Part shown: in pieces, positions 3,868 through 12,407 of the stretch
Position numbering within the stretch: position 1 is the first letter of the stretch
How the letters are laid out: each line of letters starts with the position of its first letter
NCBI GenBank assembly: GCA_947624465.1
Contig: CANQKJ010000023.1
Location: 1-14,054 of the forward strand
Source of the DNA: an uncultured Oscillospiraceae bacterium
GTDB lineage: Bacteria; Bacillota; Clostridia; Oscillospirales; Oscillospiraceae
Direction of reading: 5' to 3'
Length of the DNA stretch: 14,054 nt
Notes under the pieces: generated by a model
Database searches by the model: none
What the model was told of the DNA's origin: nothing
What the model saw: the letters and a program-made list of their open reading frames with translations, nothing else
Made by a program: the position numbers and the translations under genes

Positions 3868-6805
3868 ATGAGTTTGCGCGTCGGCATCGACATCGGCTCC
3901 ACCACCGTCAAGGTGGTGGTGCTGGACGAGGACAACAGGCTGCTGTTCCGCTCCTACGAGCGGCACTATTCCAAGGCCAGGGAGCGGGCCTGCGAGACCC
4001 TGCGCTCCATTGAGGATATGCTGAAAGGCAAGGACGTGCGGCTGGTCATCACCGGCTCCGCCGGCCTGGGGGTGGCCAAGGCCGCCGGACTGGACTTCGT
4101 CCAGGAGGTGTACGCCACCGCCGCCGCCGTCAACCAGTTCATCCCCGACACCGACGCCGTCATCGAGCTGGGCGGCGAGGATGCCAAGATCATCTTCTTC
4201 GGCGGGGCGCTGGAGGAGCGGATGAACGGCTCCTGCGCCGGGGGCACCGGGGCCTTCATCGACCAGATGGCCACCCTGATGAACGTGACCGTGAACGAGC
4301 TGGACGAACTGTCCCTCAAGCATGAAAAAATATACCCCATCGCCTCCCGGTGCGGCGTGTTCGCCAAGAGCGACATCCAGCCCATCCTGAACCAGGGCGG
4401 GCGCAAGGAGGACGTGGCCGCCTCCATCTTCCAGGCGGTGGTGGATCAGACGGTGGCCGGCCTGACCCAGGGCCGGGAGCTGAAGGGCAAGATCGTGTTT
4501 TTGGGCGGGCCGCTGCACTTCCTCATGGGCCTCAGGGAGCGGTTCGTGGAGACCCTCCAGCTGGACGAGGCCCACGCCGTCTTCCCGGAGGACGGGGACT
4601 GCTTCGCCGCCATCGGCGCGGCCCTCTGCTCCTCCGACTACCCCGCCAGGCCCTTCAATGAGCTGTTCCGGCTGCTGGAGGAGAGCCGGGGGGCCACCTC
4701 GGTGGTGGACACCATGCCCCCCCTGTTCGCCAGCCGGGAGGAATACGACGCGTTCACCGCCCGGCACAACTCCTCCACCCCGCCCAAGGCGGATATCAAT
4801 ACTTACACCGGCGACGCGTATTTGGGCATCGACGCCGGCTCCACCACCACCAAGATGGCCCTCATCGCCCCCGACGGCGGACTGCTCTACACCTACTACC
4901 ACTCCAACCAGGGCAACCCGGTGGCCATCGTGCTGGACCAGCTGAAGACCATCTACGGCCTCTGCGGGGACCGGATCGTCATTAAGGGCTCCGCCGTCAC
5001 CGGCTACGGCGAGGACCTGATCAAGAACGCCTTCTCCTGCGATTTGGGACTGGTGGAGACGGTGGCACACTACCGGGCGGCCGCCCACTTCAACCCCGAC
5101 GTGGACTTCATCATCGACATCGGCGGCCAGGACATGAAGTGCTTTAAGATCCGGAACGGCGCGGTGGACTCCATCATGCTCAACGAGGCCTGCTCCTCCG
5201 GCTGCGGCTCCTTTATCGAGACCTTCGCGAAAGCTCTGGGGTACGATATCGCCGACTTCGCCAAACTGGGCCTGTTCACCAAAAAGCCGGTGAACCTGGG
5301 ATCCCGCTGCACGGTCTTTATGAACTCCAGCGTGAAGCAGGCCCAGAAGGACGGCGCCTCCGTGGAGGATATCAGCGCGGGGCTGTCCATCTCCATCGTG
5401 AAGAACGCCATCTACAAGGTCATCCGGGCCGCCAACGCCGACGATCTGGGCAGGCACATCGTGGTCCAGGGGGGCACCTTCTACAACGACGCGGTGCTCC
5501 GCGCCTTCGAGCAGGAGCTGGGACGGGAGGTCACCCGGCCCACCATCGCCGGCATCATGGGGGCCTTCGGGGCGGCGCTGTGCGCCAGGAACCTTCATCT
5601 GGAGAAGTCCTCCCTGTTAAGTTTAGACGCCTTACAGTCCTTCACCCACACGGCGCGGCCCGTCACCTGCAATCTCTGCACCAACCACTGCTCTCTCACC
5701 GTCAACACCTTCGACGGCGGGCGGCGGTTCATCTCCGGCAACCGCTGCTCCCGGCCTTTGGGCAAGGAGAGGATCGAGCTGCCCAATCTGTACCGCTACA
5801 AGTACAGGAAGCTCCGCGCCCTGGAGGGCAAGGGGAAGGGCGACGGCTCCCGGGGCCGCATCGGCATCCCCTTCGGGCTCAATATGTATGAGAACCTGCC
5901 CTTCTGGTTCGAGCTGTTCACCCGGCTGAACTTCGAGGTGGTCCTCTCCCCCGAGTCCTCCCGGAAGCTGTACATCAAGGGCCAGCGCACCATCCCGTCG
6001 GACACGGTGTGCTACCCCGCCAAGCTGCTCCACGGCCACGTGGAGGCCCTGGTGGAGGCGGGAGTGGACGCCATTTTCTACCCCTGTATGTCCTACAACT
6101 TCAACGAGAGGATCTCCGACAACCACTACAACTGCCCGGTGGTGGCCTACTACCCCGAGCTGCTGGCCGCCAACATCCCCGACCTGAAAAAGACGAAATT
6201 CCTCAACCCCTACGCCGGCCTCCACCGGCCCCACGACTACGAGCGCATCGGCTCCCAGTGGTTCGCCGACACCTTCGGCGTCCCCCGGCACGAGGCGAAG
6301 GAGGCCATCCGGGCCGCCTTTGAGGCCTATCACGCCCACGAGGAGGACGTGCGGGCCACGGGCAGGGCCTACATCGAAGAGGCCCGGGCGGCGGGCCGGC
6401 CCATCATCGTGCTGGCGGGCCGGCCCTACCACATCGACCCGGAGATCAACCACGGCATCGACGAGCTGATCGGCTCCTTCGGCTTCTACGTGGTCAGCGA
6501 GGATGCGGTGGCCTACCTGGAGGACTACGCCCCCCGGAAGGTGCTGAACCAGTGGACCTTTCAGGCCCGGATGTACAACGCCGCCCGGTACGTCTGCACC
6601 CAGCCGGATATGCAGCTCATCCAGCTGGTATCCTTCGGCTGCGGCACCGACGCCATCACCGGCGACGAGGTCCGCTCCATCCTGGAGAGCGGCGGCAAGC
6701 TCTACACCCAGTTGAAAATCGACGACATCAGCAATCTGGGCGCCGTCAGGATCAGGGTGCGCTCCCTGATGGCCGCCATGGAGGAGCGGGGAAAGGAACA
6801 AGACA

Positions 6806-6813
<8 letters not shown>
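3868..6813 (+). CDS. Double BadF/HgdC-type activase fused to DUF2229 domain
   Basis: 981-residue cytosolic iron-sulfur ATPase. Two ASKHA activase domains lie in tandem. The first (about 4-270) has GIDIGSTTVK and cysteines 123 (NGSCAGGTGAF) and 162 (SRCGVFAKSD). The second (about 318-580) has GIDAGSTTTK and cysteines 442 (NEACSSGCGSF) and 481 (GSRCTVF). Both pairs are 39 residues apart, the spacing of the [4Fe-4S] ligands I recall in HgdC. A four-Cys site follows (601, 604, 608, 627), then a DUF2229/COG3580-type domain with cysteines 715, 740, 756, 910 and 925. HgdC-type activases use ATP to drive low-potential electrons into a dehydratase or double-cubane-cluster protein; the substrate here is unknown. 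The ATG at 3868 has GAGGT 7 bases upstream and begins where homologues begin. The open frame extends far upstream, but that part runs antisense through the PadR operon and crosses the promoter. It overlaps the next gene by 8 bases. Confidence 0.9.
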
Positions 6814-8107
<1,294 letters not shown>

Positions 8108-8133: not shown

Positions 8134-8583
8134 ATGAAACTGGCAGAGGCATTGCAGGAGCGGGCCGACCTGAACCGGAAGGTCCAGCAGCTCAGGAGCC
8201 GCCTGATGGACAACGCCCTGGTGCAGGAGGGGGAGAAGACCGCCGAGGACCCCGCCGCCCTGCTGAAGGACTACGAGAACGCCCTGGCCGCCCTGGAGGA
8301 CATCACGGCAAAGATCAACCTGGCCAACTGCAGGACCCAGGTGGAGGGCAGGACCCTCACCGAACTCATCGCCAAGCGGGACGCCCTGACCCAGCAGGCG
8401 GGCACCCTCCGGGACCTGGCCCAGACCGCCAGCCGCACCTATCAGCGGGCCACCCGCAGCGAAATCAAGATCATGAGCGCCGTGGACGTCCAGGCCCTAC
8501 AGAAGAAGGCCGACCAGATCTCCAAACAGCTCCGCCTGCTGGACAACACCATCCAGCAGACCAACTGGACCGTCGATCTGTGA
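8134..8583 (+). CDS. DIP1984-family (septicolysin-like) coiled-coil protein
   Basis: 149 residues, almost entirely charged amphipathic helix. The start MKLAEALQERADLNRKVQQLRSRL and the ending NTIQQTNWTVDL are characteristic of the DIP1984 family, sometimes annotated septicolysin. There is no signal peptide or membrane segment, so it is cytosolic. Length is normal for the family. AAAGGAGAG sits about 6 bases before the ATG, and only 26 bases separate it from the HgdB-like gene, so all three genes are probably one transcript. Its function is unknown; the 'lysin' name should not be taken as evidence of toxicity. I recall, without being able to check, DIP1984 genes turning up near RNA-repair genes and a tRNA-like RNA. 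The structured stretch directly after this gene's stop codon is notable in that light. Confidence 0.88.
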   Translation: MKLAEALQERADLNRKVQQLRSRLMDNALVQEGEKTAEDPAALLKDYENALAALEDITAKINLANCRTQVEGRTLTELIAKRDALTQQAGTLRDLAQTASRTYQRATRSEIKIMSAVDVQALQKKADQISKQLRLLDNTIQQTNWTVDL

Positions 8584-8746
8584 GGACCGGCAGGTCGTTG
8601 GTAGCCTCGGGGGCGTAATGCGACCTCGATCCGGCAAGAGGTGAAACCGCCGGAATAGGTGGAACGCGCAGGGCCGCGCGGGGTTCGAGTCCCCTGTATC
8701 GGGCAGCCCCTATCGGGTACGAGCGCATCGTTACATGGCTTCGGCC
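8584..8746 (+). ncRNA. Candidate tRNA-like structured RNA after the DIP1984 gene
   Basis: No convincing protein is encoded here. The core is GGGG-TTCGAGT-CCCC (8680-8694), a textbook tRNA T-arm loop on a 4-bp stem. Upstream are AGGTCG/CGACCT (8592-8597 with 8621-8626), which closes a loop containing the D-loop-like TTGGTAG (8598-8604); CCGGC/GCCGG (8631-8635 with 8649-8653) with an inner GGT-GAA-ACC; and CGCGC/GCGCG (8665-8669 with 8676-8680). CTCGAT (8625-8630) can pair with ATCGGG (8698-8703), giving an acceptor-like closure. Bases 8649-8669 resemble the D-arm of bacterial tRNA-Leu. No anticodon arm and no proper 7-bp acceptor stem were found, so it is not an ordinary tRNA. A further hairpin lies at 8717-8734, and a small GGC-TTCG-GCC hairpin with TTTATT lies at 8737-8752. 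Some stems exclude one another; boundaries are approximate. Confidence 0.5.
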
Positions 8747-8809
8747 TTTATTCTGTACTACCACGCATTGACCTGAGGCAAGGGCGGGAACGGGGACGCC
8801 TGCCGGTAT

Positions 8810-8831
8810 GCCCCGCCCATACGGGCGGGGC
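8810..8831 (+). terminator. GC-rich hairpin, possible terminator before the GNAT gene
   Basis: GCCCCGCCC and GGGCGGGGC form a perfect 9-bp stem around ATAC, followed by TTCCCTTT. The T tail is broken by Cs, so termination may be weak. It would end read-through from the DIP1984/tRNA-like unit. It could instead sit in the leader of the acetyltransferase mRNA, whose start codon is 25 bases downstream; no convincing separate promoter for that gene was found. Confidence 0.45.
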
Positions 8832-8855
8832 TTCCCTTTGACTGGAGATGATCGG

Positions 8856-9410
8856 ATGGAACAGCTTCAAATCGTGGACGCCCGCACCGAGGCCCACTTC
8901 CGGGCCATGTCCATGATCCACGCCCGGGCGTGGAAGATCAGCTACCGGGGCGCGGTGCCCGACGACTTCCTGGACGCCATCGGCAACGACCACTGGCTAG
9001 AGGCCTTTCGGGCCAACTACGAGACCCGAAACGGCATCAAAGGGCTTCTCCTTTACAGAGGGGACGCGCCGGTGGCCTGCCTGAACTACTGCCGCGCCCG
9101 GAAGGACAATTTCAACAGCGCCGAGTGCCAATTCCCCAACGAGGGATACGAGGACTGGGGGGAACTGGCCTCCTTCTACACCCTCCCCGGAGAGCAGGGC
9201 AAGGGCTACGGCTCCATCCTGATGGCGGAGGCCCTGGAGCGGCTGAGGGCGGGCGGCTACCGGAACGCCTTCGTGTTCGTCCTGCGGGAGAACGAGGGGG
9301 CCAGGCGGTTCTACGCCCGCCACGGCTTCGCCTGGGACGGCACCTTCGCCGAGATCCCCTTCCCCCACGACACGGTGTGCGTCGATCTGCGGTATGTGAG
9401 GTCCCTGTGA
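8856..9410 (+). CDS. GNAT-family N-acetyltransferase
   Basis: 184-residue cytosolic acetyltransferase that would move an acetyl group from acetyl-CoA to an amine; the acceptor is unknown. The acetyl-CoA pyrophosphate loop (motif A) is EQGKGYG at residues 113-119, preceded by the beta strand ELASFYTLP. Motif B is RENEGARRFYARHGF (144-158). The N-terminal region (HARAWKISYRGAVPDDFLD) is typical of the RimI-like single-domain group. The chosen ATG at 8856 has TGGAG about 8 bases upstream. An in-frame ATG at 8808 would add 16 residues, but it would translate the GC hairpin at 8810-8831 and has no good ribosome site. The gene converges on the Na/Pi symporter with a shared terminator between. Confidence 0.88.
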   Translation: MEQLQIVDARTEAHFRAMSMIHARAWKISYRGAVPDDFLDAIGNDHWLEAFRANYETRNGIKGLLLYRGDAPVACLNYCRARKDNFNSAECQFPNEGYEDWGELASFYTLPGEQGKGYGSILMAEALERLRAGGYRNAFVFVLRENEGARRFYARHGFAWDGTFAEIPFPHDTVCVDLRYVRSL

Positions 9411-11472: not shown

Positions 11473-12195
11473 TCATCTCATGCGGAACAGCCGCTCGATG
11501 TGCTTGTACAGCAGGAAGGTCAGCAGGGACACCACCACGCCCTTCACCAGATTGAAGGGGGCCACCGCCAGCAGCACCAGGGTGCTCACGCTGTTGATGG
11601 CCGGGTTGATGCCCGTGCCGATGCCCACGATCTGGTCCAGGGGCATCCCGTACAGCTCGGAGAAGGCGGGGAGCAGATAGACCGCGTTGAACAGGCTGCC
11701 GAACACCGTCATCACCCCGGTGCCCGCGGCCATGCCCGCCAGAGCGCCCTTGCGGGTCTTGAAGCGGTGATAGACCACCGTGGCGGGCAGGATGAAGGAG
11801 CAGCCGGTGGCGAAATTGGCGAAATCCCCCACGAAGGCGGTGCTGGTGCCCTTGATGACCAGCTTCAGGAGGATCTTCACGAACTCGCACACCACCCCGG
11901 CCACCGGCCCCAGGGAGAAGGAGCAGATGAGTACCGGCACCTCGCTGAAGTCCAGCTCGTAGAAGAAGGGGGCGAAGGGCAGCGGGAACTCCCAGTACAT
12001 CAGGATGGCGGCGATGGCGCCGAACACGCCGATGTAGGCCGCCCGCCGGGCCGCCGGCTGTTTGGGCGTTTTGAGCCACAGCTTCTCCGCCGCCAGCGCC
12101 ACAAGGAACAGCCCCACGAACACCAGCAGGCACATCACCAGGAACAGGACGTTGTCCTGGACCGCGGCCCAAAGGTCTTTCAGATGATCGAACAT
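11473..12195 (-). CDS. ribU: ECF transporter S component, riboflavin-specific (RibU-like)
   Basis: 240-residue integral membrane protein that would bind riboflavin and work with a shared ECF energy module encoded elsewhere. Core features of the RibU fold are visible: AAYIGVFGAIAAILMYWEFPLPFAPFF, then ELDFSEVPVLICSFSLGPVAGVVCEFVKILLKL, GDFANFATGCSFILPATVVYH, and a final LVKGVVVSLLTFLLYKHI. The substrate call is supported strongly by the FMN riboswitch directly upstream. An additional hydrophobic helix (about residues 15-42) precedes the usual first helix, making the protein longer than the roughly 190-210 residues common in the family. The ATG at 12195-12193 has AGGAG with 8-base spacing. A GTG at 12204 overlaps that ribosome site and is rejected. 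No ECF ATPase or T component is in the window. Confidence 0.92.
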   Translation of the reverse strand: MFDHLKDLWAAVQDNVLFLVMCLLVFVGLFLVALAAEKLWLKTPKQPAARRAAYIGVFGAIAAILMYWEFPLPFAPFFYELDFSEVPVLICSFSLGPVAGVVCEFVKILLKLVIKGTSTAFVGDFANFATGCSFILPATVVYHRFKTRKGALAGMAAGTGVMTVFGSLFNAVYLLPAFSELYGMPLDQIVGIGTGINPAINSVSTLVLLAVAPFNLVKGVVVSLLTFLLYKHIERLFRMR

Positions 12196-12202
12196 AAAAA
12201 AC

Positions 12203-12261
12203 ACTCCTTTCCGATGCAGACGCCTGAAAAATTGCCTTCTCAGGTGTCGATCAAAAGGAGT
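12203..12261 (-). promoter_or_regulatory. Riboswitch expression platform sequestering the ribosome site
   Basis: In the minus-strand RNA, ACUCCUUU (12261 to 12254) is an exact complement of AAAGGAGU (12210 to 12203), which contains the ribosome binding site of the transporter gene. Inside, GACACCUGA (12248-12240) pairs with UCAGGCGUC (12227-12219) with one mismatch. Six U residues follow immediately before the AUG, so the same helix may act as a terminator, as a block to translation, or both. Expected logic: FMN bound, gene off. Confidence 0.72.
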
Positions 12262-12271
12262 ATGCGCAACA

Positions 12272-12385
12272 CATCTTCTTCCATCCGGACTATAACCGTT
12301 GGTCCCGGAGTTTCACCGGGTCGGCCATGAAACATGGTTCGCGGACTGTACCGCCAGTGGGGAATCTCACCCCGCCCTGAAGACA
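12272..12385 (-). promoter_or_regulatory. FMN riboswitch (RFN element)
   Basis: Read on the minus strand, the conserved RFN blocks appear in order: TCTTCAGGGCGGGGTGAGAT, TCCCCACTGGCGGT, AGTCCGCGAACC, GACCCGGTGAAACTCCGGGA, CCAACGGTTATAGTCCGGAT, and GGAAGAAGATG. The outer strands TCTTC and GAAGA close the multi-branched aptamer. RFN elements bind FMN and switch off riboflavin synthesis or uptake genes. Here the only gene downstream is the RibU-like transporter. Confidence 0.96.
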
Positions 12386-12407
12386 GTTATCCAGTTGTCC
12401 TGCCCAC

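Follow-up and report, generated by a model that had tools for sequence, protein, structure and literature searches.

Burroughs and Aravind are said to have described, in 2016, a tRNA-like RNA in RNA-repair loci with Band-7 proteins. Among the bacterial Y RNAs, YrlA is modular and 90-150 nt long; a stem closes its 5' end against its 3' end, and it has a T-arm and, in Rsr/Ro60, a protein partner dedicated to it (PMC8394870). OLE RNA, of about 600 nt and found mostly in Bacillota, is associated with the proteins OapA and OapC, and its biochemical task is given as unknown in three reports (PMC12286853, PMC9723947, PMC12054373). ROOL and GOLLD are large structured RNAs of phages and prophages, often located near tRNA islands, and ROOL is without a known protein partner (PMC12286853). 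The DIP1984 protein family, with 4152 proteins at E<=0.001 and one member whose structure was solved in 2009, has an unexplained function. Under the name 'septicolysin', proteins of Acinetobacter plasmids have been taken as a pore-forming cytolysin in two papers (PMC3358182, PMC5559437).

We analyzed a stretch of 14,054 nucleotides from an uncultured Oscillospiraceae bacterium (hereafter, the window), in which a preliminary description had proposed a tRNA-like structured RNA a few bases behind a DIP1984 gene. The gene assignment was confirmed: the encoded protein scored 177.4 bits against NF038048 (cut-off 70) and 164.8 bits against PF20935 (cut-off 27). The gene ends with the stop codon at 8581-8583, and the RNA element indeed starts only 2 nt past it. 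Features of the locus are as follows, where A2 denotes an alignment of 48 sequences and R1 a covariance model of the RNA.

6806-8107: gene for a CoA-activase relative, before the DIP1984 gene
8134..8583, forward strand: DIP1984 family gene, 149 aa, DUF6847; the protein half of the cassette
8586..8807, forward strand: whole conserved RNA element, P1 to P1', by R1 match and alignment A2
8586..8594, forward strand: P1 5' strand ACCGGCAGG, partner 8799-8807
8600..8604, forward strand: GGTAG motif, part of the internal loop that joins P1 to P2; GGTA in 40/48; the final G already belongs to P2, as its first base
8604..8611, forward strand: P2 5' strand, partner 8772-8779
8612..8616, forward strand: junction GGCGT between P2 and P3; RGYG in most sequences; surfaced in a search for helices made without this motif
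8617..8622, forward strand: P3 5' strand AATGCG, partner 8764-8769; five pairs backed by covariation, the sixth by eye
8623..8627, forward strand: PK1 5' strand ACCTC, partner 8638-8642; covariation; elsewhere mostly TCTC/GAGA
8631..8653, forward strand: hairpin P4, CCGGC (8631-8635)/GCCGG (8649-8653); loop holds the PK1 3' strand GAGGT
8666..8679, forward strand: hairpin P5, GCGC/GCGC; loop holds the PK2 5' strand GGGC (8671-8674)
8680..8694, forward strand: T-arm hairpin GGGGTTCGAGTCCCC, GGGG-TTCGAGT-CCCC; strict T-loop (GTTCRANYC) in 36/48 aligned sequences
8706..8709, forward strand: PK2 3' strand GCCC; covariation; the window's own pairs by eye
8757..8763, forward strand: conserved TACC segment, 5' of P3', by alignment A2
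8764..8769, forward strand: P3 3' strand CGCATT; covariation
8772..8779, forward strand: P2 3' strand CCTGAGGC, preceded by a GA spacer (8770-8771)
8780..8795, forward strand: G-rich motif AAGGGCGGGAACGGGG; consensus GAGGGYGGGnnnGGGG in 47/48
8799..8807, forward strand: P1 3' strand CCTGCCGGT, pairs with 8586-8594
8810..8831, forward strand: terminator-like hairpin and T-rich tail directly 3' of the RNA; one site, with 0.8 expected there by chance
8856-9410: GNAT gene, behind the RNA

The element thus combines a nine-pair closing helix (P1), the stacked helices P2 and P3, and a T-arm hairpin with two pseudoknots and an internal loop that is G-rich. Read 5' to 3', it runs from P1 through GGTA, P2, RGYG, P3, and the first PK1 strand to hairpin P4, whose loop supplies the PK1 partner; hairpin P5 with a PK2 strand in its loop, the T-arm, the PK2 partner, and P6 follow, and the 3' end is built from TACC, P3', GA, P2', GAGGGYGGGnnnGGGG, and P1'. 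R1 matched the window at 8588-8809 with 133.8 bits, the window being part of the R1 training set. The preliminary description had placed a T-arm at 8680-8694, exactly where it lies, and a TTGGTAG motif within 8592-8626, which is found at 8598-8604. The stem drawn around that motif (8592-8597/8621-8626) did not survive as a conserved pairing, because its bases belong to P1, P3, and PK1; the segment 8649-8669, read as similar to a tRNA-Leu D-arm, consists of the P4 3' strand, a linker, and the P5 5' strand; and the element, previously ended at 8746, extends to 8807.

The minimum-energy fold of 8584-8835 was not significant compared with shuffled sequences (z -1.27, with 21/200 folding equally well); folding energy is therefore insufficient to reveal the element, and the evidence is comparative. 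From 112 loci with a DIP1984 hit, 105 regions were obtained, of which 96 remained after removal of near-identical ones. The 48 sequences of A2 were hand-picked for clear motifs, a selection that favours the pattern, and the later tests on other loci serve as the check. In an unguided scan of all column pairs of A2, P2 and P3 ranked high, and so did one pair each of PK1 and PK2. Over the 32 pairs of the 48 sequences, covariation reached 0.482 compared with 0.229±0.009 after shuffling (0/500), and slid controls gave 0.07-0.12; 90.7% of cells were paired, and 27/32 pairs had changed on both sides. The weaker parts were the middle two pairs of P2 (70.8%), P5 (84.6%), PK1 (85.6%), and P6 (86.0%, mostly G-U changes). 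P4 is based on the window sequence together with A2 columns 71-90 and 72-89. The window's row in A2 is shifted by at least one base at PK1, where its pairing was read by eye; the P5 helix is supported in A2 and in a second alignment, A5, with the window's own P5 pairs likewise read by eye because of a shifted row.

A5 comprises 83 matches (81 distinct) that were aligned to the model and hence lean towards the model helices; 10/83 rows share 90% or more identity with a training row, 73/83 fall below 90%, and the median is 68%. The model helices scored 0.690 in this set compared with 0.246 after shuffling, and slid controls gave 0.07-0.10. For the pseudoknots, both absent from the model, the score was 0.211 versus 0.115 (0/500), with slid values <=0.10 and paired cells of 76.7% for PK1 and 92.0% for PK2; the numbers of pseudoknot pairs changed on both sides (139/500) and of further pair types (70/500) were not unusual. 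The closing helix P1 had a median pairing score of 18.5 versus 9.0 for mispaired flanks (65 loci), and 27/65 loci exceeded the 95% point of this control, which includes related flanks. G-U cells outnumbered A-C cells (126 vs 50), so that the sense strand is likely to be the RNA. The preliminary description, which assigned a structured RNA to the DIP1984 gene, had held that a lack of conservation or covariation behind related DIP1984 genes would speak against it; both are present behind DIP1984 genes elsewhere. The existence of an RNA structure here can be regarded as virtually certain, and the conserved stretch of about 200 bases is predicted to fold as one RNA.

How tRNA-like this RNA is proved to be a separate matter. 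ARAGORN found no tRNA in the window and none over the R1-matched RNA in L001-L114, and the element yielded no D-arm, anticodon arm, or acceptor stem; a canonical tRNA or tmRNA cloverleaf was ruled out on these grounds, and the preliminary description had likewise noted the lack of an anticodon arm and of a standard acceptor stem. Its term 'tRNA-like' holds insofar as the T-arm is genuine and covaries in A2, and fails as the essence of the element. The T-arm is absent from the inspected Campylobacter forms, from Paracoccus, and from Acinetobacter; GGTA-like and G-rich motifs stay in the Campylobacter forms, and the Acinetobacter form has neither a T-arm nor the G-rich motif. By pattern, 46 of 87 loci had both T-loop and GGTA, 24 GGTA only, 11 T-loop only, and 6 neither. 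GGTA is thus retained in 24/30 loci that lack a T-loop, which argues that it does not serve solely as a D-loop for the T-loop; it is better read as part of the internal loop opposite the G-rich motif, and the T-arm is a common accessory rather than part of the core. The Rfam 15 search that had been proposed for the element, which covers OLE, ROOL, GOLLD, T-box, and Y RNA among other families, returned no family over it at E<=10; relatives were also without a match, at E<=10 for 5 full RNAs and 6 short-match loci and at E<=1 for 6 more full RNAs. Elsewhere in the window, Rfam identified an FMN riboswitch at 12269-12388 on the reverse strand (111.9 bits), directly followed by an ECF transporter substrate subunit gene (11473-12204, reverse strand), and the two probably serve riboflavin uptake.

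The RNA is closely linked to DIP1984. Among 60 related genomes, 18 carry DIP1984, all of the window's genus, and the same downstream element was recognized in 18/18 by motif and by eye, and also by the model. The best 80 of 529 named loci were retrieved together with ten virus loci; hosts of the named loci include Oscillospiraceae, other Bacillota, Bacteroidales, Campylobacter showae, and one metagenome-assembled genome (MAG) each of Treponema and Pyramidobacter. Plasmids, with 372 DIP1984 records of which 343 are from Acinetobacter, add Picosynechococcus, Paracoccus, Streptomyces, Mycobacterium, and Acinetobacter, and on four annotated plasmids a stretch of 269-623 bases 3' of DIP1984 is without a listed gene in an incomplete gene table. 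The Picosynechococcus locus L019 is a plasmid-borne cassette of the harmless strain PCC 7117. At a linkage threshold of E<=1e-4, R1 matched behind DIP1984 in 60/66 loci outside its training set; 10/60 of these reach 90% identity or more to a training row, and without near copies the count is 50/56. The misses were L078, which a contig end cuts, L109 and L110, which show parts of the pattern (the latter by eye), and L112, L113, and L114, which are doubtful DIP1984 matches. Most matches lay no more than about 100 nt past the stop codon, with about 220 nt in L092, about 450 nt in L081, and about 520 nt in L107. Beyond second copies in L087, L090, and L107, just two weak R1 matches (E 0.2 and 0.94) occurred in 500,849 bases.

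Searches in sets of genomes from three phyla gave a similar picture. In 299 genomes of the window's phylum, 18 exceeded the PF20935 cut-off and two more fell below it; a full-length R1 match stood just behind the gene in 17/18 under strict filters, with 8 candidates scored per genome, and the match of the remaining genome was seen in an unfiltered search of its locus (L118), giving 18/18. Nine other genomes of the 299 had short or weak matches only (<=28.9 bits). In 14 control genomes the DIP1984 family did not appear. In the phylum of Campylobacter showae, DIP1984 was present in 31/298 genomes, and the RNA in 25/25 loci examined (one of them, L193, is training locus L093); in that of a Paludibacteraceae MAG, DIP1984 was present in 3/296 and the RNA in 3/3, one being L044 again. 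R1 searches of whole records or genomes containing diverse loci found a match in 17/18 of these, and outside known places short or weak ones only. On plasmid pAB0057 (L023), whose DIP1984 member is about 39% identical to the window protein, a divergent RNA was detected at the locus (20.0 bits, E 5.6e-6), and the whole-record search gave none. Second DIP1984 copies in genomes G070 and G155 had no R1 match; behind that of G070 (L117, 5901-6300, reverse strand), a degenerate RNA keeps GGTA, a P3-like part, and TACC and is without the G-rich motif. Taken together, the results define a conserved class of RNA that has a protein dedicated to it; the class is without a match in Rfam 15, and the literature searched gave no description of it.

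Compared with OLE, the DIP1984 RNA is likewise a conserved, ornate RNA tied to a dedicated protein gene, and differs in its size of about 200 nt, in its occurrence across several phyla, and in having no Rfam match to OLE (PMC12286853, PMC9723947, PMC12054373). A likeness to ROOL and GOLLD is seen in virus contigs L111 (by R1) and L110 (by eye), where ARAGORN called 17 and 9 tRNA genes around the RNA; unlike those RNAs, which are larger (PMC12286853), the DIP1984 RNA is tied to one protein. Two ARAGORN calls were also made on virus contig L114, which has a doubtful, weak partial DIP1984 match.

In the window's genus, gene and RNA are jointly present or jointly absent, as one cassette of about 720 bp (10 genomes with, 9 without). 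The two flanking genes are 729-826 nt apart in the 10 genomes that carry DIP1984 compared with 14-84 nt in the 9 that lack it, where no RNA remnant was present. Of the 23 loci read for this test, 4 were uninformative, i.e., G020, with the cassette elsewhere, and G013, G009, and G018. Locus L132 (G032, reverse strand, 5525-5622) has the scar of a lost cassette, with the RNA 3' end alone between the same flanking genes. When 127 neighbouring genes (of 179 found) at loci elsewhere were scanned, no family occurred in more than 3, which makes the RNA the sole constant partner of DIP1984 seen. The gene upstream lies on the DIP1984 strand in 57/89 loci and the gene downstream in 51/90. In L009, L013, L014, L016, and L035, a palindromic insert around TTCCTTTTTC...GAAAAAGGAA separates the stop codon from the RNA.

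DIP1984 and the RNA of about 220 bases form one cassette, and we regard it as on balance probable that the protein binds the RNA as a small particle acting in trans. The main competing explanation, possible but distinctly less probable, is a cis-acting 3' UTR structure that tunes how stable the DIP1984 message is or how strongly it is expressed, perhaps with feedback by the protein, and that never becomes a separate RNA. It would account for the median of 14 nt between the stop codon and the GGTA-like motif, for the terminator-like hairpin within 90 nt 3' of the RNA in 46/87 loci (7.1 expected from base shuffles), and for the joint loss of gene and RNA; the mostly 3' UTR position of the RNA, which fits a cis role as well, and the small number of two-copy loci count against the particle. 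However, some 200 nt with two pseudoknots and long conserved single-stranded motifs would seem to exceed what a stability element needs, and several loci have more than one RNA per gene. L087 (3554-4032) and L090 (4453-4931) contain two tandem RNAs, the second of which is preceded by a duplicate of the final DIP1984 codons; virus contig L106 (G363) has two divergent tandem RNAs at 4530-5026 behind one DIP1984 gene; and on the 178-kb virus contig L107 (4986-5997), two RNAs follow DIP1984 at distances of 524 and 1325 nt, and an HNH/endonuclease VII-like frame, named by eye, stands between them. These extra copies speak for action in trans.

A toxin-antitoxin-like or defence/counter-defence pair, which the patchy, mobile, and solitary cassette on plasmids and virus contigs, its clean presence or absence, and its lack of a constant neighbour might suggest, is improbable: PADLOC gave no match of substance (best E 0.011), NCBIfam and Pfam revealed no nuclease or other enzyme domain in the window protein, and in G070 a second DIP1984 is accompanied by a degenerate RNA. 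A type III toxin-antitoxin system, with RNA repeats upstream of an endoribonuclease, was rejected, as the RNA here is downstream and mostly single and the NCBIfam and Pfam scans gave no such protein domain. The window's RNA resembles that of the Band-7 RNA-repair loci as a tRNA-like element adjoining a protein gene, and is set apart by its context: RtcB, present in 10/18 carrier genomes (mostly drafts), is on another contig or more than 1 Mb from DIP1984, never beside it, and no family is common among the 127 neighbouring genes, so that a link to RNA repair raised in the preliminary description found no footing. That the RNA is such an RNA-repair RNA, or a bacterial Y RNA, in a new place is quite unlikely, even though P1 closes the element end to end and a T-arm and a linked protein gene are shared with YrlA (PMC8394870). 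The D, T, and acceptor arms are all present in YrlA, whose protein is a TROVE ring; of these arms the DIP1984 RNA has the T-arm alone, which some members lack, along with a G-rich loop and two pseudoknots, and its protein has four helices. A TROVE (Rsr) gene occurs in 1/18 carrier genomes, about 60 kb away and not adjacent. Finally, a decayed tRNA or a chance T-arm behind an unrelated gene, which a T-arm without an ARAGORN tRNA could indicate, has a negligible likelihood and is refuted by the covariation in A2 and by linkage across phyla.

For the particle acting in trans, a tentative sequence of steps can be drawn. The RNA would arise from the 3' portion of the DIP1984 transcript, given the short gap between stop codon and GGTA, the terminator-like hairpin, and a search that found no promoter-like site for the RNA, and would then be cut out near P1. 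It may be held by the helical DIP1984 protein, perhaps via a conserved flexible loop around R105-K112. No feature of the protein flags RNA binding: its fold has a clear match only to its own family (PDB 3kdq, a homologue), and with 22 K+R versus 21 D+E it is overall not basic. Action of the particle in trans would fit some virus contigs and MAGs with two RNAs per protein and one virus contig with RNAs apart from the gene, and the T-arm, where present, may give TruB or other enzymes that handle tRNA an accessory place to dock.

More speculatively, DIP1984 and its RNA could constitute an undescribed, ancient, and mobile class of two-part ribonucleoprotein that extends across bacterial phyla as well as to plasmids and tRNA-rich phages. 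Its helical protein and its pseudoknotted RNA, with a T-arm as an option, would act in trans on tRNA, the ribosome, or the machinery of RNA decay, and the particle would probably serve in stress or in conflict with phages. The pairing also calls into question the name 'septicolysin' for the Acinetobacter plasmid members. The window protein belongs with them to DIP1984/DUF6847, and unlike the pore-forming cytolysin of those papers (PMC3358182, PMC5559437), this homologue has no cytolysin domain by NCBIfam and Pfam, the scan being of the window protein. A widespread protein family of unexplained function thereby gains a first partner that is constant, a structured RNA to which no Rfam 15 family matched, and DIP1984 becomes a directly testable question of RNA and protein in harmless carriers.
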